Part shown: one piece after another, positions 1,293-35,584 of the stretch | Numbering within the stretch: the first letter of the stretch is position 1 | Layout: each line of letters begins with the position of its first letter | DNA from: Martinezella lusitana | GTDB taxonomy: Bacteria; Pseudomonadota; Alphaproteobacteria; Rhizobiales; Rhizobiaceae | Assembly: GCF_900094565.1 (NCBI RefSeq) | Contig: NZ_FMAF01000007.1 | Coordinates: forward strand, 1-64,000 | Direction of reading: 5' to 3' | DNA length: 64,000 nucleotides | Translations under genes and position numbers: made by a program | Notes under the pieces: model-generated | The model's input: the letters and a program-made list of their open reading frames with translations, nothing else | Told to the model about the DNA's origin: nothing | Database searches by the model: none

Positions 1293-2513
1293 TTATACTT
1301 TGTGCATGGCCTGCAAGTCATCCCCGATCAGATGTCGGCGCATATTCATGATTCCGGCTTCGGCTTCGGCCACGGTGGTACGATGACGATTCGATTCGAT
1401 TCCCTCGGACTCCGCGGCTTTCAACAACCAAGCGATATGAGGGGGGAACAATGCTGCGTTGCCGACGAAATATGCCTCTCGCCCGACCGAATTGAAGAAG
1501 CCTTCGACCTTCCCGTCCCAGCCCAATCCTACATGCGGAATCCTCAGAGCATAGGCGGCGATACAAGCATGCAGCCTGTGCGCCAGAATAACGTCGGTCG
1601 AATGAAGTATCCGGACCAAATCATCTGGAACCCGCGGGCGTTCAGCGAGATCCAACATTCCGGCTGCAATGACACGATGCATCGAGACTGAATTCCGAAT
1701 CTGCTCGGCAAAGACTTGATCTTCTTTGGCGCCGTTACAGAACAGGATCACCCGATAACCATCATCAAGAAGTAGTCCGATCAGATCCCGATAATCTCCA
1801 ATATTGCAGAATGGGATTTTCGACATGTTCCGGCTGGCGTGTCGCTGCAGGATCATAGGATCCGTCACGCAGAGGCCGACCGTCGGTTGGAGCCCTTGCG
1901 ATGGCATGCGACGTTCATGGCCGGAAAATGCCTGGACCAACAATCCCGGATCGCGAACAATCTTGGCGGCTGGCCCTTCAGGAAAATGCTCGCGCCAATT
2001 ATCTTGGGCGAAGCCGTCACGCACGGAAAGATGGACGAGCTGAGCCTGCTTCAGTCGAGCGAAGAGATCATACGCTTTCTTCGACCAGCGCTCGCTGACG
2101 CCCACTGCGTAGATCGCCAGTGGCCGATTGTGGCGACAGACGCAGTCAAGGACCTGGCCGACTTTCAATGGAAAATTGAGATCGTCATCCTGGAACAGAT
2201 TACCGCCGCCGATCACCACCGCATCCGCCGCCGCAATCTTGGCGTCCCACTGGTCATGGAGTTTGCGCAACTTCCGCTCCAGCATGAAGCGAACCAACCG
2301 TTGCCGCGCGAAGACAGGTAGCCGCTGTAGCAGCTTGAGCGCATATCGGCGTTGCCCGCCGCGGCCTGTCCCGAAATCCTGTCGCCCCGCAAGATCGACG
2401 GTCTCGACTTCTATATGGTCCGCCCTGTTCCTCAATGCGGTCTCGACGCATTGCGCCAGAAGCCCGTCGCCCAGATTTTCGCTGTATTTGACGTTGAAGA
2501 CGACAATCTTCAT
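1293..2513 (-). CDS. Polysaccharide pyruvyl transferase family protein
   Basis: A 406-residue protein of the polysaccharide pyruvyl transferase family (CsaB/ExoV/WcaK type). The N-terminus has NVKYSENLGDGLLAQ, then VVIGGGNLFQDDD; the C-terminal half has VILAHRLHACIAAYALRIPHVGLGWDGKV, where the conserved arginine-leucine-histidine segment is intact. Family members move pyruvate from phosphoenolpyruvate onto a sugar, usually as a ketal, in the cytoplasm. The ATG overlaps the stop of the upstream Wzy-like gene by four bases (ATGA), so the two are translationally coupled. The likely role is pyruvylation of the repeat unit of this exopolysaccharide; the sugar acceptor is unknown. Confidence 0.88.
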   Translation of the reverse strand: MKIVVFNVKYSENLGDGLLAQCVETALRNRADHIEVETVDLAGRQDFGTGRGGQRRYALKLLQRLPVFARQRLVRFMLERKLRKLHDQWDAKIAAADAVVIGGGNLFQDDDLNFPLKVGQVLDCVCRHNRPLAIYAVGVSERWSKKAYDLFARLKQAQLVHLSVRDGFAQDNWREHFPEGPAAKIVRDPGLLVQAFSGHERRMPSQGLQPTVGLCVTDPMILQRHASRNMSKIPFCNIGDYRDLIGLLLDDGYRVILFCNGAKEDQVFAEQIRNSVSMHRVIAAGMLDLAERPRVPDDLVRILHSTDVILAHRLHACIAAYALRIPHVGLGWDGKVEGFFNSVGREAYFVGNAALFPPHIAWLLKAAESEGIESNRHRTTVAEAEAGIMNMRRHLIGDDLQAMHKV

Positions 2514-3934
2514 TGCAGTTCTCCGACAACACCGAACTGCGGCTTGCGCGCGATACTCATCTGGCTTGCTGTGGCTGTCAGGGCGGAAATACCGCCTGCA
2601 AGGATGTAGAACATCAATCCCAGATCATAGACGGTGCCGGAGGTTGCAGCCGAAATCAGGACGGTGATGAGCCCGGCTTTGGCTGCGCGCACAACCGCGG
2701 AAACCTTACGGGACGGCAAATGTCTGGATCGCGTGTCGGCTGCCATCAGCATGGCGACGAAGCTTGCAAAGATCAGTGTGCCGATGACCCCGATATTGGA
2801 TAGGAGCACGAGGCCGAAACTCGACGCCCGGGCGCTGCCGAGGCCGGCGCCGAAGCCACTCGTGTCGAGGAATGCCTGGTAGGCCATGGCGTTCCACATA
2901 AAGCGTTCGCGCCCGGACTGGCTGTCGGCCTTCGAGAAGAGCATCTCGTCGAGAAAATCATGCAGGTTATGAGCAAGATCAGGCATGACGATCAAGACGA
3001 AAAATACGACGAGCGGCATCGCCGCCAGAATCGACACAATCATGACAGGTCGCCCCGCGCCCGGTTCGCGACGAGAAGCCAGAAAGGATTGCAGACAAAG
3101 GATCGGCAGCAAGACAGCGAGCCCAACCAGTGCTGTCGCCGACGTCGAAAGGATCAGCGCTGCAAGCAATAGCCCGGCGACAATGCCTGTCGTGGTGGAG
3201 CGGATACCGCTCAGCCACAGGCTGGTTGTCATAGCAAAGAGAACAAGCGTGAAGTCCGCAAAGGCGGAAGCTTCGGGAAACGTCCCTGAAATCCGCTTGA
3301 GGCCACCCTTCTCGGCGCCGGTCAACAGAGCGTAATTGGCCGTTCGGACGAAGCCGAGAAGAAAATCGGTGTGGGTGAAATGGGTGACGATATCGGCAAG
3401 CGCGAAGCCGAGGTTGACACTCGCCACAACCAAAATGCCGTTGATCAGGATTCCAGGGGTGCCGTTGCTTCGGAAGAAGGCAAAGGTCGCGGCGAAGCAG
3501 ATGAGGCCCCCCACCGCATAGACGGATTGGGTAATATTGTTCGACGAGAATTTCAGCGGCACCAGCGCAATGAGATTACGTGCGCCGATTGACCGCTCGA
3601 CCGACATAGTCTGCGTCACGCCCTGAAACAGGCGCGGAAAGAAAATGGCCGTTGCCAAGCCAAAGGCGGTCAGAAGCAGTAGGAGGAAGCCCGGACGCGG
3701 GGGTGCCAGGGCGGCAAGGAACGGCCCTTCTCCATGCGCCATGAACAACCGTGCCGTGAAAAATAACAGAAAGAGGCTCGGCACCAGAACCGATGCGCCG
3801 CCGAGGCCGGGCACGCTGAAGGCCGCGGCTGCGCCGAAGATCGTCGACAGTATCATGACAACGAACGACCACCGCACAGGTGCGGCCAGCATCGCAATGC
3901 CAACGATCAATGTCACCAGTCCCATTAAATTCAT
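2510..3934 (-). CDS. Wzy-like polysaccharide polymerase / O-antigen ligase-like membrane protein
   Basis: A 474-residue, very hydrophobic protein with about 10-12 predicted membrane segments, beginning MNLMGLVTLIVGIAMLAAPV and ending in a short soluble tail. There is a large loop between about residues 170 and 220, as expected for Wzy polymerases and WaaL ligases. These proteins are poorly conserved, so the call rests on size, topology and context: it is coupled to a pyruvyl transferase and lies in a locus with Wzx, Wzc, Wza and ExoY-like genes. It would polymerise lipid-linked repeat units at the periplasmic face of the inner membrane. No other polymerase candidate is visible in the locus. 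Confidence 0.72.
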   Translation of the reverse strand: MNLMGLVTLIVGIAMLAAPVRWSFVVMILSTIFGAAAAFSVPGLGGASVLVPSLFLLFFTARLFMAHGEGPFLAALAPPRPGFLLLLLTAFGLATAIFFPRLFQGVTQTMSVERSIGARNLIALVPLKFSSNNITQSVYAVGGLICFAATFAFFRSNGTPGILINGILVVASVNLGFALADIVTHFTHTDFLLGFVRTANYALLTGAEKGGLKRISGTFPEASAFADFTLVLFAMTTSLWLSGIRSTTTGIVAGLLLAALILSTSATALVGLAVLLPILCLQSFLASRREPGAGRPVMIVSILAAMPLVVFFVLIVMPDLAHNLHDFLDEMLFSKADSQSGRERFMWNAMAYQAFLDTSGFGAGLGSARASSFGLVLLSNIGVIGTLIFASFVAMLMAADTRSRHLPSRKVSAVVRAAKAGLITVLISAATSGTVYDLGLMFYILAGGISALTATASQMSIARKPQFGVVGELQ

Positions 3935-4083: not shown

Positions 4084-4926
4084 ATGGATCACACCTCGCG
4101 CAGACATATCTGGCCATGCTCGAACGACCGCCGCACATTTCTCCGCGCCGGGCTCGTAGCGGCATTTGCCGCAATCGCAGGTATTCCGGCCGCACATGCC
4201 AGTGATACCGGAGATGGGCTCGACCTTGGCGCTATGGCGCTGACATTCGAGGACAATTTCGACAACCTGAGCGTTTCCGCTTGGGGGCCGGGCACTCGCT
4301 GGATTGCTCATACGCCCTGGAACGGCGACTTTGGCGGCGCGCGCTTCTCCGATCCGAACGGCGACTTTCCCTTCACGGTCGAAGACGGCATGTTGCGCAT
4401 TACCGCGGCGCGTGATGGCAAGGGCGTCTGGCGCTCGGGCCTGCTTGCCTCTGTCGATAGCAAGGGCAATGGCTTTTCTCAGCAGTATGGCTATTTCGAA
4501 ATGCGTGCCCGCTTGCCCGACGGCCCGGGTGTGTGGCCAGCCTTCTGGTTGATCGGCAAGGACCGATCGAAATCCACCGCCGAAATCGATGTCGTCGAAT
4601 ATTATGGCGACAAGCCGGGCGCTTACTCATCGACCGTTCACGTCTGGCACAAGGACGGCCGACACGATTCCGATTATGCCCGCATCAAGGTCTTTGGGGC
4701 GGCAAGCCCCTCGGAAATGCACAGCTATGGCGTGAAGATCGATTCCGACTTCATTCGCATGTATTTCGACGGCGCGCTGGTCTGGAAAACCAAGGTTCTG
4801 CCGGAACATCGCCAGCCCATGTATATTCTCGTCGATCTCGGCATTGTCGAGGGAGTGACGCGGATGGTCGCCTCCGATCCTTCCTTCATGTTCGTCGACT
4901 ATGTCAGGGCCTACCAGTTCAAGTAG
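4084..4926 (+). CDS. Secreted glycoside hydrolase family 16 glycanase
   Basis: A 280-residue protein with a Tat-type signal: a twin arginine in NDRRTFLRAG followed by a hydrophobic stretch and an AHA-S cleavage region near residue 38. The GH16 catalytic signature is EIDVVE with E167, D169 and E172, the nucleophile, helper aspartate and acid/base. GH16 includes ExoK/ExsH, which cut succinoglycan in Sinorhizobium, and other beta-glucanases. The natural role here is probably trimming or release of the exopolysaccharide made by the neighbouring genes. It faces away from the Wzy-like gene across 150 bp. No strong ribosome-binding site precedes this ATG, so the start could be slightly different, but the Tat motif needs a start close to it. 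Confidence 0.88.
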   Translation: MDHTSRRHIWPCSNDRRTFLRAGLVAAFAAIAGIPAAHASDTGDGLDLGAMALTFEDNFDNLSVSAWGPGTRWIAHTPWNGDFGGARFSDPNGDFPFTVEDGMLRITAARDGKGVWRSGLLASVDSKGNGFSQQYGYFEMRARLPDGPGVWPAFWLIGKDRSKSTAEIDVVEYYGDKPGAYSSTVHVWHKDGRHDSDYARIKVFGAASPSEMHSYGVKIDSDFIRMYFDGALVWKTKVLPEHRQPMYILVDLGIVEGVTRMVASDPSFMFVDYVRAYQFK

Positions 4927-5246: not shown

Positions 5247-7166
5247 ATGATCGATCGCGAGTCTCTTAAAAATGCAGTTGGTGCTGCAAGTATGCATTAC
5301 GATCGCAACCGCTGCCTTCACGACATGGTGCACGCCCAGGCAGAGGCCGCGCCACAGGCAACGGCCCTGGTTTTCGGCGACACCACGGTGAGCTACCGCG
5401 ACCTCGATCGGCTTTCCGACGCGCTTGCGACGTATCTTATAAAGCTCGGCGTCCGGAAGGCAGATATCGTTGGCCTGTTCCTTCCACGCAGCCTCAACGC
5501 CATCATCTGCAAGCTGGCCATTCTCAAGGCCGGCGGCGCGTACCTACCTCTCGATCCCGCCTTTCCAATCGAGCATCTCGACCATGTCATCGGCGAATGT
5601 CAGCCGAAGGTCATTTTTGCCGATGCAGCCCATGGCGAAACGCTCGGCTCGGTTCCCAGCATGGCCGCAAGGGTTATCGAGGCCGGCGCCATCATCGCGG
5701 AGATGGCAAATCGAGCCCATGCTCCCGCCCCAGCCGTCAAGGTCGGCGGCGACGATCTCGCCTATGTCATGTACACGTCCGGTTCGACCGGCAGGCCGAA
5801 AGGCACCATGATCTCCCACCGCAGCATTGCGCGGGTCGTGCTCGATCAGACCTATGTCGACTTTCGGCCTGAAGACGTCGTTCTTCACACCGCCACCATC
5901 GCCTTCGACGCCTCGACCTTCGAAATCTGGGGAGCCCTGCTCAACGGCTCCGCCTTGGCAATCATGCCGGACACCAGCTTCTCCGTCGCCCGCCTGTGCG
6001 ATTTCATGCGGACGACCGGTGTCAGCATCACCTTCCTGACGACCGGGCTGTTCAACGTGTTCGCCGATCACGCCCGCGGACCTCTGCCGAAGCTTCGCCA
6101 TGTTCTGTTCGGCGGCGACGTTGGGTCGGCGGTTCATGCCCGGCGCTTTCTTGAGCGTCATCCCGGCTGCAAGCTCACCAATGCCTATGGCCCGACGGAG
6201 ACGACCGTCTTTGCGACCGCGTTCCAGGTGCTTCCGAACTTCTCCGACAAGGAACTGCCGATCGGCAAGGCGATCGCGCATACCGGTATTGCCGTCCTCA
6301 ACGAGGAATTGCGCGAGGTTGGCCGGGGAATCGAAGGTCAATTGGCGATATCGGGCGACGGCCTGGCGATCGGCTATTTCAAGCGGCCCGAATTGACGGC
6401 CGAGAAGTTCGTGACGATCGACACGAAAAACGGCAGGACCCGCTACTATCTGACCGGTGACATCGCCTTCCTGCAGGCCGACGGCACGGTTGCCTTCAAG
6501 GGTCGCCGGGACCGTCAAGTCAAGATCAATGGCAAGCGCATCGAACTGGATGAGATCGAGGCGGCGCTGAGACGCGATCCGCGTCTTGCCGACGGCATTG
6601 TTCTTTGTCATGAGCAGGGTCCAAATCTGAAACGGATCGTCGCCTATCTGTGCCCGAAAGAGGATCGCGCGGGCGCGGGTCCCGATCTGGGGCCGAGCGT
6701 CATGGCGGCGCTGCGCGCGGTACTTCCGGCCTATATGATCCCGAGCGCCGCCGTTATCGTCGATGCTTTGCCATTGACGCCCGCCGGCAAGGTCGATCGC
6801 TCCAAGCTTACTCCGCCGGCAATTGAACCCATCGCGACGCCCATGGGCGCAATTGCCAAAAGCCGGACGGAAGAGCTGCTGACGACGCTGTGGCAGGACG
6901 CATTGGGCCTCGGCGCAGTTGAAATCGACAGGAACTTCTTCGATCTCGGCGGAACCTCCCTTCAGCTGATGGAGATCCACGCCGGCCTGGAAACGGAGCT
7001 CGACCATCCCATCGACGTGGTCGCGCTGTTCCGCCATCCGACAATCCGGGAATTGGCGCGTCACCTCGACGGTAAGGCTCCGGACCCGATACGAGCAGCG
7101 GCGGCCGCTCAGCGCGCTGCACTTCAGCAAAAGGCAATATCCCAATTCCGCAGGAGCTCCTCATGA
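5247..7166 (+). CDS. NRPS loading module: adenylation and thiolation domains (A-T)
   Basis: A 639-residue two-domain non-ribosomal peptide synthetase. The adenylation domain (about residues 20-535) shows YTSGSTGRPKG, NAYGPTETT, YLTGD, GRRDRQVKINGKRIE and LTPAGKVDR; the thiolation domain has LGGTSLQ with the phosphopantetheine serine at S571. Reading the ten pocket positions by eye gives D-A-F-F-L-G-A-V-F-K, closest to known isoleucine/valine-type codes, so a branched aliphatic amino acid is my guess. There is no condensation domain, so it should act as the chain starter for the next protein, whose ATG overlaps this stop (ATGA). I chose the ATG at 5247 because a GGAGG lies six bases upstream; longer upstream open frames lack homology. 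The carrier serine needs the Sfp-type transferase encoded at 19510-20217. Confidence 0.93.
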   Translation: MIDRESLKNAVGAASMHYDRNRCLHDMVHAQAEAAPQATALVFGDTTVSYRDLDRLSDALATYLIKLGVRKADIVGLFLPRSLNAIICKLAILKAGGAYLPLDPAFPIEHLDHVIGECQPKVIFADAAHGETLGSVPSMAARVIEAGAIIAEMANRAHAPAPAVKVGGDDLAYVMYTSGSTGRPKGTMISHRSIARVVLDQTYVDFRPEDVVLHTATIAFDASTFEIWGALLNGSALAIMPDTSFSVARLCDFMRTTGVSITFLTTGLFNVFADHARGPLPKLRHVLFGGDVGSAVHARRFLERHPGCKLTNAYGPTETTVFATAFQVLPNFSDKELPIGKAIAHTGIAVLNEELREVGRGIEGQLAISGDGLAIGYFKRPELTAEKFVTIDTKNGRTRYYLTGDIAFLQADGTVAFKGRRDRQVKINGKRIELDEIEAALRRDPRLADGIVLCHEQGPNLKRIVAYLCPKEDRAGAGPDLGPSVMAALRAVLPAYMIPSAAVIVDALPLTPAGKVDRSKLTPPAIEPIATPMGAIAKSRTEELLTTLWQDALGLGAVEIDRNFFDLGGTSLQLMEIHAGLETELDHPIDVVALFRHPTIRELARHLDGKAPDPIRAAAAAQRAALQQKAISQFRRSSS

Positions 7167-10100
7167 AGGCAAGTCACCATGGCCAGGGCGAAGAGCCTGA
7201 TTTCTTGGATAGTGAGGATCTGGTCGGGCAGGGTTCCGGGCACATAGCCATTATCGGCATGTCCGGTCGCTTCCCAGGCGCGCCTTCGGTGGACGAGCTA
7301 TGGCAATTGGTTTGCGAAGGGCGGGACGTCTTTTCGCGTTTTTCGCCGGACGAGATCGAAGACGCCTTCACGGACGAAGAGCGGTCGCAGCCGAACTATG
7401 TTGCGGCAAGACCTCATCTTCCTGACGTCGGGATGTTCGATGCGGAGTTCTTCGGCATGTTTCCGCGGGAGGCGGCGGTGACCGATCCGCAACATCGGGT
7501 CTTCCTGGAAATCTGCTGGGAGGCGCTTGAAAGCGGCGGATACGATGCGCAGCGCTACAACGGCATGATCGGCGTCTTTGCCGGATGCTCCATGCCGACT
7601 TATCTCATCAACAATGTTCTGCGTGACCGCGCCAAGGCGGAGGAATTCACCTCCAATTACCAGATCGGCTGCTTCCATGAGCTTGTCGGCGCTCTCAATG
7701 ATACGCTGGCAACGCGCGTCGCCTATAAGCTCGATCTTCGCGGCCCTGCTTTCACGGTACAATCGGCTTGCTCGACCTCGCTTCTGGCCGTGTCGCAGGC
7801 CTGCCAGAATCTGCTCACCTATAGCTGTGACATGGCGCTGGCCGGTGGGGTGTCGATCACCATTCCGCAAAGGCGGGGCTATATGTACCAGGATGGCGGC
7901 ATGGCCTCTCCGGATGGAACATGCCGACCTTTCGACGCGAACGCTGCCGGAACGGTGTTTGCAAGCGGCGCCGGCGTCGTTCTTTTGAAGCGTCAGGAAG
8001 ATGCACTGCGCGACGGCGACCATATCTATGCGGTCATTCGCGGCTATGGCATCAACAATGACGGCAGCGACAAGGTCGGCTTCGTCGCGCCGAGCGCCGA
8101 GGGGCAGGCCGAGGCAATCGCCGCAGCACTCGCCAATGCTGCCGTGGAGCCGTCGACAATCGGCTATGTCGAATGTCACGGCACTGCGACACCGCTTGGC
8201 GACCCCATCGAGTTCAACGGGCTGAAGAGGGCTTTTGCACAGAATCCGCCGACGGCCGCAAGTTGTGCACTTGGCTCGATCAAGGGCAATATCGGACACA
8301 TGGACGCCGCCGCTGGCGTCACCGGCCTGATCAAGGCGGCGCTGGTGCTGGGCTCCGCCAAGATCCCGCCGATGGCCAACTACAAGCAACCCAATCCGCA
8401 CATCGATCTCGACCACAGCCCCTTCTACATCCCGACAGCAATGATCGACTGGCCACAGGGGCAAGGTCCCCGGCGGGCCGGCGTCAGCTCTTTCGGCGTG
8501 GGCGGCACGAATGTCCATGTTGTCCTAGAAGAGCCGCCGCGCAGGCGCCTTCAAGCCGAAGAGCTTGGAAGACGATATATTCTGCCGCTCTCGGCGCGCA
8601 GCAAGCCCGCCCTCGCGACGATGCGGGCCGCTCTTGGCGATCATCTCGCCAAGAACCCGAAAATTTCCGTGATGCAGCTTGCCCATACGCTTCAGGAAGG
8701 GCGCCGCGAGTTCAGCCATCGCCTCGCTATCTCTGCCAGCAGTGTCGAAGACGCCATCGGTCGGCTGACAACGGAGAACTATCAGTCTTTCATTGCAGCG
8801 GACGAACCGCCCGTCGCCTTTATGTTTCCAGGGCAAGGCGCACAATATGTCGGCATGGGCGCTGGCCTTTATAGGTCGGAACCCGAATTCACCCGCTGGA
8901 TCGATCGTGGCGCCGAGCTTCTGAAGATGACGCTCGGGCTCGATCTGCGCGACTACATCTGCCATACCGGGCCGGTAACCCAGGCGATCACCGATGAGCA
9001 GCGCGAGACGCGCATCGCCCAACCCTGCCTCTATCTTGTCGAATATGCGCTGGCACGGCTGTGGCTCAGTCGTGGCGTGAAGCCCTATGCCATGATCGGC
9101 CATAGCGTCGGCGAATTTGTTGCCGCCACGCTTGCCAACGTCATCTCGTTCGAAGACGGCTTGCGGCTGGTCGCCAATCGTGGGCGCCTGATGCAGCATC
9201 AGCCGCAGGGAGCCATGGTTTCGGTTCGCGCGGATGTCGAAACGACCAGCTCATACTTGCGGGGCGAAGTCGAAATCGCCGCAATCAACGCGCCGAAACT
9301 CTGCGTCATCTCGGGGCCGTTTGCCGATATCGATAGGGTTTGCGGCGAACTCGAATCCGCCAATATCGCCTTCAGCCGCCTGCACACATCGCATGCCTTC
9401 CATTCCGCGATGATGAACGACGCCGCCGAGGCACTGCGTCAGGAAACGGAGAAGGTTACCTATGGCACTGCCACCATGCCCTTCATCTCCTGCGTCACCG
9501 GCGACTGGCAGACAGGGGAACTAGGAACCTCGCCCGACTACTGGGCCATGCATTGCCGCGACACTGTCCGCTTCGCCGATGGTCTGGCGACGCTATGCCG
9601 TGACCGCAAGCCAATCCTTCTTGAAGTTGGCCCGGGGCGCACGCTTTCCGTCTTTGCCGCGCAGACAATCGCGCGTGACGATCTGGCGGCGGTGGTGCAA
9701 TCACTGCCTGAACACGACCGCGCTTCCGCTGCGGCCGAAACGCTCGCCGAAGCACATGGCAAGCTCTGGATGGCGGGTTGTTCGCTCGTCTGGCCAGCTC
9801 TCCCGATCGCCGCCAAACAGCGACTGGTCTTGCCAACCTATCCTTTCCAACGCCAGCGCCATTGGATCGACGCCCCCGCATCGGCACGACGGGCGTCGGC
9901 ACAGCAGATCAGCGCCATGCCAGGCAATCCCACCATCACCATCCCCGTCGCCTCAGACGTCAACCTCGCCGAGGAGAACAAATCAATGAATGTCGCAGCA
10001 CCAATCTCCGCTTCCCACCGCGTTCTCACATTGGAAACCAGCCTCTTGACCCTGCTCAGCGACATGTCGGGAGAGACGCTCGGTCCGGATGAGCGGGCGG

Positions 10101-19484: not shown

Positions 19485-19509
19485 CTTGTTTGGAACGGAA
19501 GCGCTGTAG

Positions 19510-27148: not shown

Positions 27149-27313
27149 ATGAAACACCATGCAGAGCAGCGTATGAAAGACGACAACCAGGATCGCGATC
27201 GCATCATCGAAGGGCGGGCACGCCCATCACATCGGAAATACGCGGTTCGTTGGATGATCGTGATATTCTGCCTGATTGTATGGATCGCCGTTGCCATGTT
27301 CTTCATTTGGTAA
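27149..27313 (+). CDS. Small hypothetical single-span membrane protein
   Basis: A possible 54-residue protein: a charged N-terminal half (KDDNQDRDR) and one C-terminal hydrophobic helix from about residue 33 to the end (MIVIFCLIVWIAVAMFFIW). The charge and helix pattern is typical of small inner-membrane proteins. It lies in the 440-bp gap upstream of the flippase gene (26864-27302), on the other strand, and its last bases overlap the 3' end of the ExoY-like gene. No good ribosome-binding site is visible. Otherwise the gap holds the flippase promoter region, and I see nothing else in it. Confidence 0.33.
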   Translation: MKHHAEQRMKDDNQDRDRIIEGRARPSHRKYAVRWMIVIFCLIVWIAVAMFFIW

Positions 27314-27995
27314 GACGTTCTTTTTCATTGCGGGCAAGCAGCACGACGCCGACGGTTCTGATGAGAATAGCCAGGTCGATGCGCAGCGAGCGGCTGTGGT
27401 AATAATCCACATCGAATTGCACGCGCTCTTCATAGGTTGTCTCCGCGCGGCGATTGACCTGCCAGAGGCCGGTTATGCCCGGTTGCAGTGCCAGATAGCA
27501 GTAGAGGTGCGCGCCATAGCGTTCGAGTTCCGAGGCCACGACTGGACGGGGTCCGACCAGGCTCATCTCGCCGCGCTGAACGTTCAATAGCTGCGGCAGC
27601 TCGTCCGCGCTGCTCATGCGCAAATATTTCCCAAGCCAGTGCACGCGCGGATCGTTCATCAGTTTCTGTGTCGAAAGCCATTCCTGTTTTCGCTGCGCAT
27701 CTCGTTCGAGCAGTTCCGCCAGCCGCCGGTCGGCGTCCTTGCGCATGGTGCGGAATTTCAGACATTCAAATGGTCGGCCGTCACGGCCGATGCGGGTGTG
27801 GCGATAGATGATGGGACGGCCGTCAACCAGGAGCAATGCGACTGCAATGACGAGAAACGCCGGTGCAAGAAACAGCAATCCCGCGCCCGAAAGAATAAGG
27901 TCGACAAGGCGTTTCGAACGGCTGCGCCGTACTGTCCGTTTCAAATCGCGAAGCGATTGCTCGCCATGGGCAAAGCCATCAAAAGCCGATAGCAT
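27303..27995 (-). CDS. ExoY-like undecaprenyl-phosphate sugar transferase
   Basis: A 230-residue bacterial sugar transferase (ExoY/WbaP C-terminal type). One membrane hairpin follows KRLVDLILSGAGLLFLAP, then RHTRIGRDGRPFECLKFRTM, SADELPQLLNVQRGEMSLVGPRP and QPGITGLWQVNRR. It starts repeat-unit synthesis by moving a hexose-1-phosphate onto undecaprenyl phosphate at the cytoplasmic face of the inner membrane. The length matches S. meliloti ExoY rather than the longer WbaP. It is separated from the GT4 gene upstream by 133 bases that may hold its own promoter. Confidence 0.93.
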   Translation of the reverse strand: MLSAFDGFAHGEQSLRDLKRTVRRSRSKRLVDLILSGAGLLFLAPAFLVIAVALLLVDGRPIIYRHTRIGRDGRPFECLKFRTMRKDADRRLAELLERDAQRKQEWLSTQKLMNDPRVHWLGKYLRMSSADELPQLLNVQRGEMSLVGPRPVVASELERYGAHLYCYLALQPGITGLWQVNRRAETTYEERVQFDVDYYHSRSLRIDLAILIRTVGVVLLARNEKERLTK

Positions 27996-28128: not shown

Positions 28129-29433
28129 TTAGCTTGTCTCGTCGACAACCTGACGGGCGACCGGAAAATCACTGAGCGCGGGCACATTTTCGCCCGTCCT
28201 GGTGGTGTTTGCCCGCTTCAGGATGTGCTCGTAGAGGACGAGCAGCGCATCGCGCCATGATGCCGGCGTGTGCGCCAGCTCGCCGGACTGGCGGATGCAA
28301 TTGACGCTCATCCAACGAAGCAGCATGTCGTCATTGGCCAGCCGACGCATCCCGCTCGCGAGCGTTTCCACCTTGCCGCTCTGAAAGGTCAGCCCGCATC
28401 CAAGCGCCTCGAGCTCGTCGCCCAGGAGCGCTGCATCCGGAAGGATGACCGGGATGCCGCTGGTCACGGCCTCCAGCGCGGCAAGCCCGAAAGGTTCCGG
28501 AACGCGCGAGGACACGACGAGCGCGCGCGCTTGAGCAATGATGTCCCGAATCTCATCCTTGGTTTTCCAGCCGTGAATGACGACTTCGGGATAGTCTTTT
28601 TCCAGACGCGCGCGGCCGGCACCGTCCCCGATGACGTGGAGTTTCACGCCGGCAAGCCGGGCTGCGATCGCAGCGTCTTCAAATCCCTTTTCGGGCTCCA
28701 GCCGGCCGACAAAGAAGAAATCGCGTTTCTTCCAGGGATCCATGGGGTGTTTCAGAAACGGTTCGACGGGATTGCGGATTATTTCAATATTGGCTGTCCG
28801 CATCTGGCCGCGCTCGAAATAATCGAGCATGCGCTGGTGCACGACAACGATATTGGCGGGTATCTGCCGTGTGGGATAAAAATACTCCCGCAGCAGATGA
28901 CGCGCCGACCGCCAGACTTTCTCATCGTATCCGCGCTTGTCGCAGTTCGTCGTCAGACATTGGACCGACATGGGCGTCAGCGGACAGACCTGATTCTTGC
29001 GATAGTTGGCAAATCCGCCATTCGGACAGGACAGGAAATAGTCATGGGCGTGCAGGATGACACGCTCGCGCACAGGCCACAGCGCTCGAAAGATCGAAGG
29101 CGACAGAATCTTCGTCCAGCCGTGCACATGGTAGATGGTGCCAGGTGTATCGACGCGGGCGATAAGGCCCTGGAGGGCGGCATAGGCATGCCGGCTGTAT
29201 AGGCCGCTGACGAGGGCGTGCATACGTGCCTGTTGCATCAGCGGCTGGGCGTCGAGATTGATGGTATCGGCCGCCGGCGGATCGGAGCCGGCGGCATCTC
29301 CGGCAAAATAGGTTACCGGTATCCCTGCGTCCTGCAGCAAACCAGCCGAAAGGATTGCAAGGTTCGATGCCCCCCCTATCCTGGCGGAGCGATCGTTAAT
29401 GATGACGACGCGATCGAGATTGGCGGGGCGCAC
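28129..29433 (-). CDS. Glycosyltransferase family 4
   Basis: A 434-residue GT4 enzyme with GT-B fold. The C-terminal half has FFVGRLEPEKGFEDAAIAA, LHVIGDGAGRARLEKDYP, and SSRVPEPFGLAALEAVTSGIPV, the EPFGLAALE part being the family's nucleotide-sugar EX7E motif. It adds a sugar to the growing lipid-linked repeat unit in the cytoplasm. It starts four bases after the stop of the Wzc-GT2 gene, so the two are coupled. Confidence 0.92.
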   Translation of the reverse strand: MRPANLDRVVIINDRSARIGGASNLAILSAGLLQDAGIPVTYFAGDAAGSDPPAADTINLDAQPLMQQARMHALVSGLYSRHAYAALQGLIARVDTPGTIYHVHGWTKILSPSIFRALWPVRERVILHAHDYFLSCPNGGFANYRKNQVCPLTPMSVQCLTTNCDKRGYDEKVWRSARHLLREYFYPTRQIPANIVVVHQRMLDYFERGQMRTANIEIIRNPVEPFLKHPMDPWKKRDFFFVGRLEPEKGFEDAAIAARLAGVKLHVIGDGAGRARLEKDYPEVVIHGWKTKDEIRDIIAQARALVVSSRVPEPFGLAALEAVTSGIPVILPDAALLGDELEALGCGLTFQSGKVETLASGMRRLANDDMLLRWMSVNCIRQSGELAHTPASWRDALLVLYEHILKRANTTRTGENVPALSDFPVARQVVDETS

Positions 29434-29437
29434 GGGG

Positions 29438-32400
29438 CTATTCCAGCATTTCGATGTTTTGTGGCGCCAGCCTGCCCTTCAGCAGGTCGTGGAAAGCCAT
29501 GATGTTACCCTTGAGCCGTCCCTTACGGTCGACCCAGGGCTCCGGCCGCCAGGTTTTGAAGAGATTGGCGACCAGGTTGCGGCCGATCTGCGCCGTTGCG
29601 TGCGGCACGCTCATGGTACGCTTGCGCATCAGGTAGAGGGGGTTGGCAATCTGAGAATAGCCAAGACGGACACCGGCCGACCGGCCGCTCTTGGTGCCGA
29701 GATGAACACCTTCGAGCTGCTTGGCACTGACCACCTGACCATAATGAGCGGCAAGCCGGCTGAAGTCGACGTCCTCGAGCCAGCCATAGGATGGCAGGTT
29801 CTCGTCAAAGCGCAGGCCGGTAGCGTTGATGATGGCCATCCGGATTGCCATGTTGCAACCATAGGCGTTGTAGACCGGCTGAACCTGCATCGTAGGCTCC
29901 GAGCGCCGTCGGCGCTTGGCTTCGACCAGCCGCAAGCCGTCCCGAACGGAAATGCCGGGGCCGGTGATACCGTCGGCCAATACTGTGCCCGTGCACATGA
30001 CGACATCGGGCTGGAACTGAAACAGCCGTTCGGCTTCTTCGATATAGGTCGGCGTCATCAGGAAGTCGTCGTCGAGGAAGAGGACGATATCCGCATCCCG
30101 AATATTGTCGAGGATGCGATTGCGTTGACGGCAAAGGCCACGTTCGGAGATGAGCACCCGCACGGGGAAGTCGAGATTGCGAAGGCAGCTCGGATCGATA
30201 TCCTCCGGCGACGAAAGGCAGACGACGACCTCGTCCGGCTTGCGGCTCTGGTTGGCGATATGGGGAAGGATGGACGACAGGATGTCCCGCCGGCCGGTGC
30301 TGGCGATGCCGACGACGACCTTGAGAGGGCGACCCGCCGTATAACCCACGAGGCGTCTGGTAGAAAAGCGCGTCTCGCGGCCCCGTGACTTGCGCCACCA
30401 ACGGCGACGTTCGCCATGTTGCCGCTTCTCGTAGCTGCGGTTCGCGATGATGCCGAGGATGTTGATCGACGTGGTGCCGAAGCTTGCGAGCGCATCAGAC
30501 AGCCGCTCGACCGTCATCTTGTTGGTCTGCCCGACGACAACGACGATACCTTCGAGATAGGCGCAGATGACCCGCGTATCGGCGGAGTCCTCGAAGGCGG
30601 ACATGTCGACGATGACGACCTTGTATCGCCGCCGCAACAGGTCGATCTCAGCCTTCAAGGCAGGCAGGTGCCCGTACCGCTGGAAGGAGGCGACCGACTT
30701 CTCCGTCTCGTCGACGGTGACGACAGGAACACCGCCGTGGGCCTGCGCGGAGGACCTCTCGGCCTCGGGCTCATGATCGGTCTTCGCGACCAGCATGCCG
30801 CTTTCATGCGCTACGGCATAGCGGCGCGGCACATCATTTACGCTCAGCACCTCCATCCCGAAATCCATGCCGGATTCCATCGCCACGCAACTCAGCCGCG
30901 CGTTGAGAAAATCGGCATCGATCAGCACCACGGAGGCGCCTTCGTGCTGATAGAGTTGCGCAAGATTGGTCGCGACCGTCGTCTTGCCTTCGCCGGTGCC
31001 GACCGAGGTGATGCCGATCACCATGGGTGCATTGGGCGGGAAGGAGGAATCGATCGAGTGCTTGACGCCACGCAACGCTTCGGAGAATTGCGAATAGGGC
31101 GTGTCGAGCACGGACCTCAGCGGCAACATGGTTCGCCGCCATGAAGAGCCTCCTGCCACTATATTGCCGGGCACGAAAGATGGGCTGGTATAGACGGGGA
31201 CATGACCAAGCAAACTGAGCCCCAGCTCCCGCCGGAGCTTCTCGCTTGAACTGACGCGTCGATCCAGGCCATCCCGCAGGAGTGCCGCCATCAGGCCGGC
31301 CGTAAGGCCCAGCATGGCGGAGAAGGGGATTACAAAGGACGATTTCGGCCAGGCCTTGGTCAGCGGTGCGGCGGCGGCCGTCACAACTCGGACGTTGCCG
31401 AGCGGGAAGGATTCCTTCTGCATGGCGCCGATCAATTGCTGGAGAATGCTTTCATACATGCGGCGATATGTCGTTGCCCGGCTTTCCATTTCGGACAGTT
31501 CCACGCGTGCGAGGTTCTTGTCCGTCCCGGTTTCCTTCAGCGAGGTCAATTCATCACCCAGAAGCCCTTCCCGGGTCTTGGCGACCTCAAGATTCGCGCT
31601 ATAGACGGCTTGGATACGGGCAAATTCCTTGCGCATTTCGTTCTTCTGCCGGTCAATTTCCTGCTGCGCGGCGATAACGGCGGGATTGTCGGCGTCATAT
31701 CGGCTGATAAGGTTGTTGAGCTTGGTGGTCGCCACACCGAGATCTTCCTGCAGCTTCTGGATGCGGGGATTGTTGATTGTCTCGTCGACGTCGCCCTCGA
31801 CCTTGCCGCCCGCCAGCAGCTGGTTGAGCGTGGCAAGCTTGGCGGACTCAGCCGCTGTCTGCGCCTTCGCCGCGACTGCCTGGCTGCTGATCTCGGACAA
31901 TTGTTGCTGATCGAGTGATGAAGAGTTGCTGATCTCCATAATGCCGTTCTTGGCGCGAAACTCTTCCACACTCATGGCCGCTTCGCGTGCCTGCCGACCG
32001 ACCTCGATGAGCCGTGTTTCAAGCCATTTGGCACCACTTTGCGCCGCGGAGGCGCGTTCCGACAACCCCGTCTTGATATAGGCCTCGGCGATCGCGTTCG
32101 CCGCCAGCGCAGCCTTTTCCGGATCGATGGAACTATAGCCAATCTCAAGAATGTAGGATTGGCCGACCCGGGTGACGGAGACCCTTGAGAGAAAGGAGGC
32201 CATGGTGCGGCGCATCAAGTCATCGTCGCTCGGCACGGCCTTGGCGCTGGCATCGCCGTGCTTGAAAAAGCTGATGAAGGCGCGCAGCTTGTCGTGGAAG
32301 GCCGCTTGCCACGACACGCCTCCGACGATCTCCGGATCCTCGCTGAGATTGAGTTTCTCGACCACGGCGCGCGCGGTCGCTTCGGACTTGACGATCTCGA

Positions 32401-32698
32401 CTTGGCTGGCAATTTCGGCTGCCTCGATGATGACAGTGCCCGTGAACGCATCCTGGGACACGATACGCCCCTGGTCCGGGTCCATGACGACGCGCGTTGT
32501 TGCCAGATAGACCGGCTGTGTCGTGGCCATATAGAAGCCACCGATGCCGAGTCCCGCCGAGGTGAAAATGGCGAAGATCAACCAATGACGCTGCAGAAAG
32601 CGCCAGATATCGCGAAACGAGATGTATTCGCTGCCCCCCGAGCGCTTGGTATCCGATGGCGTACCGCGCAAGCCCTTACCGATCTCGTGAACTGCCAT
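29438..32698 (-). CDS. Wzc/ExoP-like co-polymerase and tyrosine kinase fused to a GT2 glycosyltransferase
   Basis: A 1086-residue protein in one uninterrupted frame. Residues about 20-480 are a Wzz-type chain-length domain: first membrane helix near 37-57, a long coiled-coil periplasmic part, second helix near 455-480. Residues about 540-740 are a BY-kinase domain with Walker A GTGEGKTT (K572), Walker A' VVLIDADF and Walker B KVVIVDMSAF. From about 785 to the end follows a complete GT2 domain: VVVGIASTGRRDILSSILPH, FLDDDFLM as the DXD-type motif near 875, and YGWLEDVDFSRL near 990. The tyrosine-rich tail of usual kinases is missing and replaced by the transferase. Normal ExoP/Wzc proteins are about 720-790 residues. 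The first gene after the export protein, it should control chain length and may add a sugar itself. Confidence 0.93.
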   Translation of the reverse strand: MAVHEIGKGLRGTPSDTKRSGGSEYISFRDIWRFLQRHWLIFAIFTSAGLGIGGFYMATTQPVYLATTRVVMDPDQGRIVSQDAFTGTVIIEAAEIASQVEIVKSEATARAVVEKLNLSEDPEIVGGVSWQAAFHDKLRAFISFFKHGDASAKAVPSDDDLMRRTMASFLSRVSVTRVGQSYILEIGYSSIDPEKAALAANAIAEAYIKTGLSERASAAQSGAKWLETRLIEVGRQAREAAMSVEEFRAKNGIMEISNSSSLDQQQLSEISSQAVAAKAQTAAESAKLATLNQLLAGGKVEGDVDETINNPRIQKLQEDLGVATTKLNNLISRYDADNPAVIAAQQEIDRQKNEMRKEFARIQAVYSANLEVAKTREGLLGDELTSLKETGTDKNLARVELSEMESRATTYRRMYESILQQLIGAMQKESFPLGNVRVVTAAAAPLTKAWPKSSFVIPFSAMLGLTAGLMAALLRDGLDRRVSSSEKLRRELGLSLLGHVPVYTSPSFVPGNIVAGGSSWRRTMLPLRSVLDTPYSQFSEALRGVKHSIDSSFPPNAPMVIGITSVGTGEGKTTVATNLAQLYQHEGASVVLIDADFLNARLSCVAMESGMDFGMEVLSVNDVPRRYAVAHESGMLVAKTDHEPEAERSSAQAHGGVPVVTVDETEKSVASFQRYGHLPALKAEIDLLRRRYKVVIVDMSAFEDSADTRVICAYLEGIVVVVGQTNKMTVERLSDALASFGTTSINILGIIANRSYEKRQHGERRRWWRKSRGRETRFSTRRLVGYTAGRPLKVVVGIASTGRRDILSSILPHIANQSRKPDEVVVCLSSPEDIDPSCLRNLDFPVRVLISERGLCRQRNRILDNIRDADIVLFLDDDFLMTPTYIEEAERLFQFQPDVVMCTGTVLADGITGPGISVRDGLRLVEAKRRRRSEPTMQVQPVYNAYGCNMAIRMAIINATGLRFDENLPSYGWLEDVDFSRLAAHYGQVVSAKQLEGVHLGTKSGRSAGVRLGYSQIANPLYLMRKRTMSVPHATAQIGRNLVANLFKTWRPEPWVDRKGRLKGNIMAFHDLLKGRLAPQNIEMLE

Positions 32699-32734: not shown

Positions 32735-34072
32735 TCATTGGGATTGCGTGGGATCGACCGAGGACAGCACCGTACCGTCCAGGTTTCCGGAAATGTTGTA
32801 GCGAACGTCCAGAACGTCTCCGGGCTGCAATTCCGTCGTTTCCGACACTTGGGTAGCGGCGGCGTCGCCGCCGCCTCGCGTAATCCAATATTCGCGCGGC
32901 TGAAGATCGAGCGACTGGATGCTCTGGCTGCGGGAGAGCGATGCGCCGGCGATCTGGAGCAGCTGCAGCGTCGTATTGCGCTTGAGTTTCGTGTCCTCGA
33001 TATCTGTCTCGGTCGTCTGCAGTTGCTGCCCGGCTTCGGTCTTGCGCTGACCTTTGAGGTTCAGGGCGTCGCGTTCGGTTTCGCTCAGCTTCTGCTTGGC
33101 CTGCATCGACGCGACGACGAGGTCCAGCTTGCCGGCCTGCATCTCGGCAACGATCCGCTCCAGCGAGGTCTTGCGTGACGTCGTCAGGATCTTGGTATCG
33201 ACCAGCTTCGTAATATCGCTCAACTCGTCCTGGGCGATCTTCACCTGCTCGTCCTGCGAGCTCATCTTCTCATCGAGAATGTTGATTTCGTTGTGCAGCA
33301 GCGTCTCGAGGTCCCCCGCGGATACGAGCTGCTGACGCAGGGCGTCGGCACGGGCATTGAACAGATCGATCTCGCTTATCATGATCTGCTTGATGACCGA
33401 CCCATCCGGTGCGGCCTTGATCTCCGGCGGGAATGTGATGGTCGGCTGATCGTTGAGTTCGGCCATCAGACGAGCGCGCCGGGCACTGAGCTGCTTCAAT
33501 TGCAGCTCCATGCGATTGATCTCGCCGGCATAGCTGATCTGCTGCGCCTCGGAATAGTCGCCCGTCTGACTGGAATGGCGCTGGCTACCACCGGCCATGG
33601 CGATGGCCTGTTTGACTGTCAGGCCCGGACGGAATTCCAGTTCGCTTGGCTTTTCGACAGCACCGGAGACGTAGATCATCGGATATTTGACCACCTCGAC
33701 CGAGGCGGTGGGCGCGACGGCAAGACCGGTGATCTGCTTCAGCTTGTCGCCGATGTCGGCGCTGACGATGCTGGTCGTCTTGTCGTTGACCTGCATTTCC
33801 CCGATCATCGGAATAGAGATCATACCGGATTGCGAAACGACATATTCGCCGTTCAGCGCCGTCCATTCCTTGTATTCGCCTGTCGCGGCGATCCATTCGA
33901 CGATCGCCACCTTGATCCGCGTCTGCGGTCTGATGTGGTAGGCCGTGTCGGCCGCAGCGCTGGCTGTGTCGAGCAAACCTGCCCCGGAAAGCGCCAATGC
34001 CAACACCCATGGCACCAGGGCTCCAGAGGGCTTGCGGCCGAATCGGGGAGAGAAAACGGAAGTTGAAAGCAT
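32735..34072 (-). CDS. ExoF/Wza-like polysaccharide export protein
   Basis: A 445-residue protein with a signal peptide (LVPWVLALALSGAGLLDTASAA). Residues about 45-150 form the poly-export domain (YHIRPQTRIKVAIVEW), followed by a SLBB-type segment (YPMIYVSGAVEKPSELEF), then a long helical coiled-coil region (about 195-370). This is the layout of ExoF of S. meliloti rather than lipoprotein Wza, since no lipobox cysteine is seen. It links the inner-membrane Wzc-like protein to the outer membrane. An ATG 69 bases upstream is in frame, but the start at 34072 puts the signal peptide at the right place. It is the first gene of the leftward operon. Confidence 0.88.
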   Translation of the reverse strand: MLSTSVFSPRFGRKPSGALVPWVLALALSGAGLLDTASAAADTAYHIRPQTRIKVAIVEWIAATGEYKEWTALNGEYVVSQSGMISIPMIGEMQVNDKTTSIVSADIGDKLKQITGLAVAPTASVEVVKYPMIYVSGAVEKPSELEFRPGLTVKQAIAMAGGSQRHSSQTGDYSEAQQISYAGEINRMELQLKQLSARRARLMAELNDQPTITFPPEIKAAPDGSVIKQIMISEIDLFNARADALRQQLVSAGDLETLLHNEINILDEKMSSQDEQVKIAQDELSDITKLVDTKILTTSRKTSLERIVAEMQAGKLDLVVASMQAKQKLSETERDALNLKGQRKTEAGQQLQTTETDIEDTKLKRNTTLQLLQIAGASLSRSQSIQSLDLQPREYWITRGGGDAAATQVSETTELQPGDVLDVRYNISGNLDGTVLSSVDPTQSQ

Positions 34073-34387
34073 GGGCGAGATCTCGTTGTTATGTCGCTTG
34101 CGTCGCCACAAACCGGGACAAGCGCTATGCAACGAGATCATCAGCTGAACGCATAACGTGTAAATACCCCGCGGCAGCGCTTGGGCTAATCACTTCTGGC
34201 AGGACATACAGGCGCCTCGAACATCCCTAGGCCGGCTTGCACATCCTTGCGTGCAGGCTTTCCTCGTCAGTTAACTCTTTCGGCTGCCCACTTCGGCCAT
34301 TTGGATGCGATGGCGGACCGATATGGGTTCTGTCGCAAAGGTTGCCGCCCGCACAATGTTGTTGCGACCCAAGGAGGGAAAAGAACA
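34073..34387. promoter_or_regulatory. Divergent promoter region between the export operon and a GT4 gene
   Basis: About 315 bases separate the starts of the leftward ExoF-like operon and the rightward GT4 gene, so promoters for both should lie here. GCACATCC and CTTGCGTGC near 34234-34254 make a weak inverted repeat. No coding frame here looks real. Confidence 0.5.
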
Positions 34388-35584
34388 ATGCGGGTAGCAA
34401 TCGTTCATTATTGGCTTGTGTCGATGCGCGGCGGCGAAAAGGTGGTCGAAGCCCTCTGCGACATGTACCCGGATGCCGACATCTTCACCCTTGTCTATGA
34501 TGAAAGTCGCGTCTCGGAGAAAATCCGCAAGCATAAGGTCACCACATCCTTCCTGCAGCGTATCCCGGGCGCCATCAAAGCATACCAATCGCTCCTACCG
34601 CTGATGCCTTTTGCGCTGGAGAGCTTCGATCTCACCGACTACGATCTGATCATTTCGAGCGAATCGGGTCCGGCCAAGGGCATTATCCCCCCGCCACACG
34701 CAACACATGTCTGCTATTGCCATTCACCGATGCGCTACCTTTGGGATCACTATCACTTCTATCGGTCCCATGCCGGTCTGGCGTCGCGGCTGATGTTGCC
34801 CGTGCTGGCGCCGTTACTGCGGTCCTGGGATGTCAGCACAAGTTTGCGCGTGGATCGCTTCGTCGCCAATTCGCACCATGTCAGCGACCGCATCAGCAAG
34901 TATTATCGCCGCCCGGCAACCGTCCTTCATCCGCCCGTCAGCGTAGACGATTTTACGCCGTCAGCTGTCATCGACGACTTCTATCTCTGCGCTGGCCAAT
35001 TGATCCCCTATAAACGTATCGACCTGGCGGTAGAGGCCTTCACCCGAATGAACCGCAAGCTGGTGGTGATCGGCGAAGGCAAGGAGATGGAGCGCCTGAA
35101 GCGAGCCGCAGGCCCCACCATCACCTTCCTCGGGCGCGCGCCGTTTGCGGTGTTGAAGGAAAAGCTTTCCCGCTGCCGTGCGTTGATCTTTCCGGGCGAG
35201 GAGGATTTCGGCATTGTTCCAGTCGAAGCCATGGCGAGCGGCAGGCCCGTCATCGCCTATGGCAGCGGCGGCGCACTGGAAACGGTCGTTCCGGGCCTCA
35301 GCGGCATGCTGTTTGGCGAGCAATCCGTCGAAGGCCTGATCAAGGCCGTGCGTGATTTCGAGGAGAATGAGCATCTTTTCCATCCCGAGGCGCTACGGGC
35401 GCATGCAGGTCAATTCAGTCTTCGCAATTTCATGGTGGGTATGCAGGCCATCATCGATGAGGAACTGATGATGCGAAAGACGGTCCAGCACCGCAGAGAT
35501 TACAACATCGCCGCCATGCAACGCGCGTTCGAAGCGCAGTTGCCGGCGCTCGTCACCGAGCCACGTAGTGCAACGCTTCAATAG
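34388..35584 (+). CDS. Glycosyltransferase family 4
   Basis: A 398-residue GT4 enzyme of GT-B fold: VAIVHYWLVSMRGGEKVVEALC at the N-terminus (a pattern of WcaI/WbaZ-like mannosyl or related transferases), THVCYCHSPMRYLWD, YKRIDLAVEAF, VIGEGKEMERLK and FPGEEDFGIVPVEAMASGRP. It is probably another sugar-adding step for the exopolysaccharide. I chose ATG 34388 because AAGGAGG lies nine bases upstream; the longer open frame has no homology. It reads away from the main export operon. Confidence 0.92.
   Translation: MRVAIVHYWLVSMRGGEKVVEALCDMYPDADIFTLVYDESRVSEKIRKHKVTTSFLQRIPGAIKAYQSLLPLMPFALESFDLTDYDLIISSESGPAKGIIPPPHATHVCYCHSPMRYLWDHYHFYRSHAGLASRLMLPVLAPLLRSWDVSTSLRVDRFVANSHHVSDRISKYYRRPATVLHPPVSVDDFTPSAVIDDFYLCAGQLIPYKRIDLAVEAFTRMNRKLVVIGEGKEMERLKRAAGPTITFLGRAPFAVLKEKLSRCRALIFPGEEDFGIVPVEAMASGRPVIAYGSGGALETVVPGLSGMLFGEQSVEGLIKAVRDFEENEHLFHPEALRAHAGQFSLRNFMVGMQAIIDEELMMRKTVQHRRDYNIAAMQRAFEAQLPALVTEPRSATLQ

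Follow-up and report, generated by a model that had tools for sequence, protein, structure and literature searches.

Succinoglycan (Exo) and other rhizobial exopolysaccharides (EPS) of the Wzx/Wzy type are made by a shared set of proteins, an ExoY-type starting transferase, Wzx, Wzy, Wzc/ExoP, Wza/ExoF, a pyruvyl transferase, and a GH16 glycoside hydrolase. We analyzed a 64,000-nucleotide stretch of Martinezella lusitana (Rhizobiaceae; contig NZ_FMAF01000007.1, positions 1 to 64,000; here called the window) in which a locus between 1.3 and 35.6 kb has the same components and adds a nonribosomal peptide synthetase-polyketide synthase (NRPS-PKS) assembly line, a 4'-phosphopantetheinyl transferase (PPTase), a GINT1 protein, a DegT-family aminotransferase, and a GMC oxidoreductase. 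Comparison with related genomes strongly supports that the NRPS and EPS genes belong together. We lean, by a modest degree, toward the view that the EPS repeat unit carries a short NRPS-PKS peptide, which would be added at the lipid-linked stage and cross the membrane together with the unit when it is flipped.

Cell-surface glycans decorated with amino acids are known from DltABCD, which d-alanylates teichoic acids, and from AlmEFG, which glycylates lipid A. Both load amino acids with an adenylation (A) domain and a carrier protein, as the window locus would, whereas the window has a multimodule NRPS-PKS with β-amination and a Cys thioesterase (TE), and no MBOAT- or AlmG-type acyltransferase was found among the open reading frames (ORFs) of at least 150 residues that we scanned with Pfam and NCBIfam across positions 1293 to 35584 (the scanned ORFs). 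Mycosubtilin- and microginin-type lines likewise run from ketosynthase-acyltransferase-acyl carrier protein (KS-AT-ACP) through a class III aminotransferase to condensation-adenylation-peptidyl carrier protein (C-A-PCP). The window line differs from them in starting from an amino acid on A-PCP rather than a fatty acid, in being very short, and in lying inside an EPS locus. The fourth comparison is the KdnA/KdnB pathway to 8-amino-3-deoxy-d-manno-octulosonic acid (8-amino-Kdo) in Shewanella. Among solved structures the window DegT protein is closest to KdnA, but its neighbor is a GMC oxidoreductase, and the scanned ORFs include no iron-dependent KdnB.

The titles and abstract openings of the open-licence literature yielded no study of an NRPS embedded among rhizobial EPS genes. 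The announcement for strain 11515TR lists EPS genes and predicted NRPS/PKS genes separately (PMC6256449), and the words "nonribosomal," "non-ribosomal," "polyketide," and "NRPS" are absent from the main text of the CIAT 899 genome paper (PMC3557214). The SL42 genome paper has an "NRPS, T1PKS" region in its antiSMASH table, and its available passages give no product (PMC12993520); the SL42 plasmid carries the locus described here, which is probably that region. Strain AG207R has a paper of its own (PMC10281140).

An EPS locus encloses a three-gene assembly line

The Pfam and NCBIfam scans revealed a complete-looking Wzx/Wzy EPS locus that encloses three NRPS-PKS genes. The features are as follows.

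363-1034, minus strand: CRP/FNR-type regulator at the locus edge (Pfam HTH_Crp_2, cNMP_binding)
1293-2513, minus strand: polysaccharide pyruvyl transferase (PF04230, 2.3e-23)
2510-3934, minus strand: Wzy-like polymerase (Wzy_C, 8.8e-07, subthreshold at 29.3 bits against a cut-off of 31.7; 12 hydrophobic segments)
4084-4926, plus strand: GH16 glycoside hydrolase (PF00722, 8.4e-15)
5247-7166, plus strand: NRPS1, A-PCP loading module (Pfam; start, about 5247, taken from an annotated homologue)
7163-15274, plus strand: NRPS2, KS-AT-ACP-class III aminotransferase-C-A-PCP (Pfam)
15271-17754, plus strand: NRPS3, C (HQSCFDG)-PCP-TE (Cys nucleophile, GLCVNG) (Pfam, motifs)
17755-19407, plus strand: GINT1 protein, a formyltransferase-fold domain without NxH plus a GH43-like β-propeller, GINT1_N (Pfam 6.2e-40, AlphaFold, Foldseek)
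19510-20217, minus strand: PPTase (PF01648, 4.9e-20)
20219-21412, minus strand: DegT-family aminotransferase (Pfam; nearest solved relative KdnA, the Kdo8N transaminase)
21625-23343, plus strand: GMC oxidoreductase, candidate sugar alcohol oxidase (Pfam, PDB matches)
23462-24283, minus strand: S-adenosylmethionine (SAM) methyltransferase (Pfam)
24508-25329, minus strand: TIGR04325-family methyltransferase (NCBIfam 1.7e-50, above cut-off)
25343-26863, minus strand: Wzx flippase (Polysacc_synt_3, 9.7e-35)
27303-27995, minus strand: ExoY-type initiating sugar transferase (PF02397, 1.3e-57)
28129-29433, minus strand: GT4 glycosyltransferase, GT4a (PF00534, 9.3e-19)
29438-32698, minus strand: Wzc copolymerase fused to GT2, WzcGT2 (Pfam, NCBIfam)
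32735-34141, minus strand: Wza/ExoF outer membrane export protein (PF02563, 1.6e-11)
34247-35584, plus strand: GT4 glycosyltransferase, GT4b (PF00534, 3.9e-23)

Every gene named in the original prediction was recovered in its place, and the scanned ORFs contain a single polymerase candidate and a single flippase candidate, as had been claimed. The CRP-like regulator, the two methyltransferases, and the formyltransferase-fold N-terminal domain of the GINT1 protein are additional to that inventory. With an ExoY-type transferase, Wzx, Wzy, Wzc, and Wza in one locus, the product is predicted to be a secreted, Wzx/Wzy-polymerized EPS. No transporter besides Wzx and Wzc/Wza was detected by Pfam among the scanned ORFs, which thus include no dedicated peptide exporter. 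The host genome has seven TIGR01005 copolymerase matches, one of which exceeds the cut-off (contig C39, 782 bits, compared with 227 bits for the window protein); we take the C39 protein to be the usual ExoP, and the window locus probably makes an additional polymer.

Four-base overlaps join the pyruvyl transferase gene to wzy, NRPS1 to NRPS2, and NRPS2 to NRPS3, and the spacing is 1 base between the PPTase and DegT genes and 4 bases between GT4a and WzcGT2; these overlaps and short spacings indicate coupling. The GINT1 frame abuts NRPS3, and a later ATG (near 17806, as in an annotated homologue) would leave a gap of about 50 to 100 bases. Since the operons run in differing directions, the NRPS and EPS genes are interleaved within one block.

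The NRPS and EPS genes are inherited together in Rhizobium

We used the GINT1 protein, encoded immediately after NRPS3, as a marker in 148 Rhizobium genomes. It matched in 57 at a threshold of 0.001, strongly and over its full length in 39 (54 to 100% identity) and weakly in 18. Full-length WzcGT2 (58 to 100% identity) was present in 40 of the 148, namely, the same 39 plus genome G141. One of the 39 is represented by the window and two (G103 and G110) are fragmented; from the other 36 we pulled the locus with up to 20 kb on each side. NRPS1 to NRPS3 matched in all 36 pulled loci, and both EPS halves lay in the same stretch in 35. The pieces in G103 and G110, which stand outside this contiguity count, were consistent with the gene order. 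The order recurs across tens of genomes at about 40 to 98% identity and is therefore not due to chance, and the original suggestion that relatives would keep NRPS and EPS genes as one unit was borne out. The linkage is old, and the locus is often on plasmids.

Content varied slightly. In G115 and G122, GT4b is at the left side of the locus; the pulled loci of G040, G029, G111, and G046 had no match to the GMC gene, and G023, G144, and a four-genome clade (G021, G101, G024, and G041) had no match to the TIGR04325 gene. We considered G141, in whose assembly NRPS3 was not found at 1e-20, as a natural NRPS deletion and set it aside as unreliable because its EPS half is on a 24-kb contig that ends inside the locus, just past the GMC gene, and the assembly has 9% contamination.

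The association outlasts rearrangement beyond Rhizobium

In 394 genomes sampled from the family, GINT1 matched at 1e-40 or better in 19 and Wzy in 49. Wzy of at least 53% identity occurred in 15, the same 15 that have GINT1 of at least 49%, with both cut-offs chosen after the lists were inspected, at clear gaps. Twelve of these 15 fall outside Rhizobium, in six genera, and all 12 carry the NRPS with both EPS halves nearby. In one of them (G421) the two halves are adjacent and rearranged. Two Chelativorans loci keep the usual order as far as sequence was read. The remaining four GINT1-bearing family genomes (g63) have an EPS locus without NRPS-PKS, as judged in detail for G356 and by tblastn only for the other three. 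The G356 EPS locus encodes an asparagine synthase, a stand-alone AMP-binding enzyme, and an NAD-synthase-like protein (stretch L193, 368-5189), possibly another route to add an amino group or amino acid. In Actibacterium, a GINT1-bearing EPS locus encodes a 671-residue protein with a glutamine-synthetase catalytic domain (stretch L051, 307-2322).

Several loci had other arrangements. In G342 (Wzy, 43%), NRPS2 (53%) and NRPS3 (51%) lie amid EPS genes, and 40 kb of sequence gave no match to GINT1, DegT, or GMC. The NRPS of Gemmobacter aestuarii is accompanied by Wzy, Wzx, ExoY, glycosyltransferases, PPTase, and GINT1, whereas neither DegT nor GMC was matched in 41 kb. Among 72,556 plasmid records, NRPS3 matched at 1e-100 in 19, and EPS genes surrounded it in all 19 (14 examined as records and 5 as pulled genome loci); these records are partly nonindependent, with two deposits of AB2/73 and the close relatives CCGE531 and CCGE532 among them. 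Four are from Rhodobacterales, namely, Rhodobacter sp. CZR27, two Loktanella salsilacus records, and Jannaschia sp. M317. Their domain order is unchanged and their gene orders differ; no DegT, GMC, or GINT1 match was found in 32 to 41 kb, with the Rhodobacter and Jannaschia stretches cut at the record start. NRPS and EPS genes thus occur intermingled in six other gene orders (G421, Gemmobacter, G342, Rhodobacter, Loktanella, and Jannaschia), and the association outlasts rearrangement in other bacterial orders, which supports the original interpretation. The shared distribution of the two gene sets across distantly related bacteria suggests, without proving it, that the peptide is attached to the polymer.

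The system is uncommon, since in a class-wide sample of 385 genomes only the window's genome and G813 reached 1e-80. The G813 line is fuller, carrying a third A domain and ending with a C domain that reads HHxxxDG. About 10 to 19 kb away on the same contig are genes for a GT4, a Wzz protein, and a sugar transferase, the last of which alone matches a window gene (36%). No flippase or polymerase was identified there (10 upstream ORFs were scanned with Pfam), and G813 is weak support for the linkage.

The line is predicted to make a short diamino peptide

The domain order is A-PCP, then KS-AT-ACP-aminotransferase-C-A-PCP, then C-PCP-TE. We assigned the A-domain binding-pocket positions by hand. 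The first pocket reads DAFFFGAVF in the window and varies among relatives, some of which have DAWLFGAVL or DAFLFGAVM; these are near a Leu code, and we assume a Leu-like residue. The second pocket is DILQCGMIW in 47 of 53 rows and one letter off in the other 6, which is close to a Gly code. The KS Cys is present in all rows with letters at that place (51 of 53), the AT motif GHSVGEF in 53 of 53, and HAFH, which we take to mark malonyl specificity, also in 53 of 53. The aminotransferase domain retains its Lys in 49 of 53 rows and is missing altogether from the other four. No ketoreductase was matched by Pfam in the assembly line, so the β-ketone should become an amine. From these features the predicted peptide consists of a Leu-like residue, a malonyl extension with β-amination, and glycine.

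The line has the parts of a hybrid NRPS-PKS, that is, A-PCP, KS-AT-ACP, C-A-PCP, and a TE with its catalytic residues. The TE Cys, Asp, and His were found in 54 of 54 aligned rows, and the Cys also in G342, the four Rhodobacterales plasmids, and G813. The best, albeit weak, match among solved thioesterases was 4zxh, with a Cys at the same place. A Cys nucleophile in every copy read would fit acyl transfer. The window NRPS3 module has no A domain and no HHxxxDG in its C domain; since the A domain is missing, its C-PCP may be a relic or a spacer before the thioesterase. The C motif is HQxxxDG in 48 of 49 readable rows, HN in Gemmobacter, and HQ in Jannaschia, while G342, Rhodobacter, both Loktanella records, and G813 have HH.

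Flippase exchange coincides with an altered assembly line

The original prediction held that relatives with the EPS genes in one place and the NRPS genes elsewhere would speak against it. One such relative was found. In Rhizobium tubonense CCBAU 85046 (G144), the genes ExoY-GT4a-WzcGT2-Wza-GT4b are located on contig C2 and the NRPS half is on C32, each piece several kilobases from its contig ends. The NRPS half there still adjoins the pyruvyl transferase, Wzy, GH16, and a Wzx. This Wzx is of another type, and the NRPS1 A domain has degenerate core motifs.

The four-genome clade has a shortened line, mapped as KS-AT-ACP-C-A-PCP-PCP-TE in G021 and G101; G024 and G041 have the same fused ORF, with the aminotransferase domain absent. 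No DegT, GMC, or TIGR04325 match was found in any of the four stretches, and these genomes would be predicted to make a keto-peptide or to use another acceptor. Their Wzx is 57 to 58% like that of R. tubonense and about 24% like the usual Wzx. The GINT1 tree requires at least two Wzx exchanges, to the same alternative type, and both coincide with an altered NRPS. A flippase that recognizes a peptidyl repeat unit predicts exchange of Wzx where the NRPS is altered.

Proposed attachment of the peptide and alternative explanations

Gene linkage, the Cys thioesterase, the lack of another exporter among the scanned ORFs, and the two flippase exchanges together lead us to favor attachment, and a covalent peptide on the polymer appears to be the most economical reading of the locus. 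NRPS1 would load a Leu-like residue. NRPS2 would add malonate, its aminotransferase would convert the β-ketone to an amine, and its second A domain would add glycine; with Leu in first place, the product would be a 3,4-diamino-6-methylheptanoyl-glycyl thioester, whose acyl group would add about 213.15 Da to each substituted repeat. The NRPS3 thioesterase would pass the peptide via its Cys to a sugar acceptor, by aminolysis or esterification rather than hydrolysis. ExoY, GT2, GT4a, and GT4b would assemble the lipid-linked oligosaccharide, pyruvate would be added, and an amine may be introduced into the oligosaccharide by DegT, often together with GMC, in most Rhizobiaceae loci. Wzx would then flip the peptidyl repeat unit, Wzy would polymerize it, Wzc/Wza would export the polymer, and GH16 would trim it.

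Several observations weigh against this scheme. Gene linkage does not demonstrate a covalent bond. The block has no recognizable peptide-sugar acyltransferase, and the TE would have to act as one. The second His of HHxxxDG is gone from the NRPS3 C domain of Rhizobium-type loci, yet all but the four-genome clade retain this domain, and the scheme offers no explanation for its retention. Related EPS loci without NRPS exist (g63 and Actibacterium), so the sugar machinery can work without this peptide. R. tubonense holds part of the EPS genes on another contig, and DegT and GMC, the obvious amine makers, have no match in several NRPS loci. Two Wzx exchanges are few, the GINT1 tree flags G144 and G115/G122 as long branches, and the first-A-domain letters vary in many loci without a Wzx exchange.

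The best-surviving alternative, which we consider unlikely, is a free secreted peptide (a signal, protease inhibitor, or antimicrobial) that is needed together with EPS, for example in biofilms or on roots, the linkage reflecting coregulation. Thioesterases can release free acids, and a diamino statine-like unit resembles protease inhibitors; the three-A-domain line of G813 also lies apart from the GT4, Wzz, and sugar transferase genes rather than among them. However, scanning the ORFs of the window's block turned up no exporter, peptidase, or resistance gene, the NRPS stays among divergent EPS operons through rearrangements, and none of the 19 plasmid records breaks the link.

Less probable again, and in our judgment a poor fit, is addition of the peptide to a finished or exported polymer, or cross-linking of chains through its two amines. 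The domain order does predict two free amines, and GH16 has an N-terminal signal-like stretch, which we take to be twin-Arg-like, and probably acts outside. On the other hand, a simple hydropathy scan gave zero to two isolated hydrophobic stretches for the NRPS proteins and none for the PPTase and GINT1 proteins, so the peptide would be made internally and would require an exporter, none of which was found among the scanned ORFs. Hitchhiking on one inherited island without functional meaning, for which the frequent plasmid location and the split R. tubonense locus could be cited, is very improbable and was already disfavored, as the presence patterns agree in Rhizobium and the family sample and six other gene orders are unexpected under simple hitchhiking.

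Extending attachment to a widespread alphaproteobacterial class of peptidyl-EPS, in which a Cys-TE transfers a diamino peptide before flipping to give a polymer bearing cationic peptides, is more tentative, and we place it a little below an even chance.

Roles of DegT, GMC, and GINT1

In a PDB search, DegT matched KdnA (5k8b) with an E value of 1.7e-65 over residues 39 to 364; the next best was 2.4e-51. KdnA aminates C8 of Kdo, and with KdnA as the nearest solved relative an unusual amino sugar is possible where DegT is present. KdnB is named in a paper on iron-dependent alcohol dehydrogenases (FeADH) (PMC5125639). The scanned ORFs of the cluster include no KdnB-type iron alcohol dehydrogenase, and only the GMC oxidoreductase was found; its PDB matches include glucose and fructose dehydrogenases, pyranose oxidases, and 6'''-hydroxyparomomycin C oxidase. 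DegT and GMC could together oxidize and aminate a sugar alcohol. Four genomes keep DegT without a GMC match (G040, G029, G111, and G046).

The earlier idea that the peptide is joined to an amine made by DegT did not survive as a general rule. No DegT match was found in the stretches read of the four-genome clade, G342, Gemmobacter, Rhodobacter, Loktanella, and Jannaschia, and we rejected the idea that DegT supplies the acceptor amine throughout; at most, it could do so in a subset of these loci.

The N-terminal domain of GINT1 (AlphaFold model, predicted local distance difference test score [pLDDT] of 71) matched by Foldseek an ArnA domain at an E value of about 1e-6 and WbkC at 1e-5, with template modeling scores (TM-scores) of about 0.4 to 0.6; a sequence search of the PDB with the GINT1 protein gave no match. 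By eye, no Asn-x-His, the catalytic motif of sugar N-formyltransferases, was seen in rows covering the domain, and the window reads GEWAFNFSD. We therefore rejected an N-formyltransferase despite the matching fold. We also rejected a universal peptide-glycan ligase, as GINT1 occurs in the NRPS-free EPS loci of g63 and Actibacterium and has no match in the G342 and four Rhodobacterales plasmid stretches. The occurrence of GINT1 in NRPS-free loci points instead to a function on the glycan side.

Other features of the locus and its surroundings

The window begins at the end of contig C48, and the left flank is therefore visible only in relatives. The contig start (1-247) is repeated on two other contigs at 91 to 97% identity and is probably a repeat that broke the assembly. 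The CRP/FNR-type regulator gene is next to that for the pyruvyl transferase in every one of the 36 Rhizobium loci pulled and in most of those from other genera. A GGDEF-EAL protein and a methyltransferase gene beyond it (40805-44315) adjoin the locus in at least 9 of the 36 pulled stretches, and the GGDEF-EAL neighbor raises possible cyclic di-GMP control of EPS.

The SAM methyltransferase (23462-24283) was found in the window and its close relative G045 only, with no match listed in the other loci compared, and the TIGR04325-family gene also in the Loktanella and Jannaschia loci. GT4b homologues in Rhodobacterales loci have 49 to 58% identity. Wzc and GT2 are separate genes in SL42, and the WzcGT2 match in Sinorhizobium and Ensifer spans only about 770 of 1,086 residues. 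A CocE/NonD-family hydrolase gene beside the PPTase gene in the Loktanella and Rhodobacter loci (L232, 1512-3323) is a candidate acyl or peptidyl enzyme, and Rhizobium sp. CCGE532 has a gene for a CsgH-like curli chaperone close to the locus (L244, 352-624).

The GINT1 and PPTase genes are separated by an intergenic region with a 70-base element (19405-19474) that has many further genome copies at 81 to 98% identity among the matches listed and resembles a dispersed short repeat. A repeat scan of 19300-19520 gave no inverted repeat and a single short direct pair, and a promoter and terminator scan gave no more than in shuffled sequence.

Implications

If the polymer does carry the peptide, capsule and EPS synthesis would include assembly-line biochemistry, with a thioesterase that transfers a peptide to a glycan, and genome-mining tools would be recording clusters of this kind as orphan NRPS-PKS natural products. 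By bearing a positively charged side chain, such a rhizobial polymer could influence how the bacteria attach to roots, withstand plant peptides, and form biofilm.

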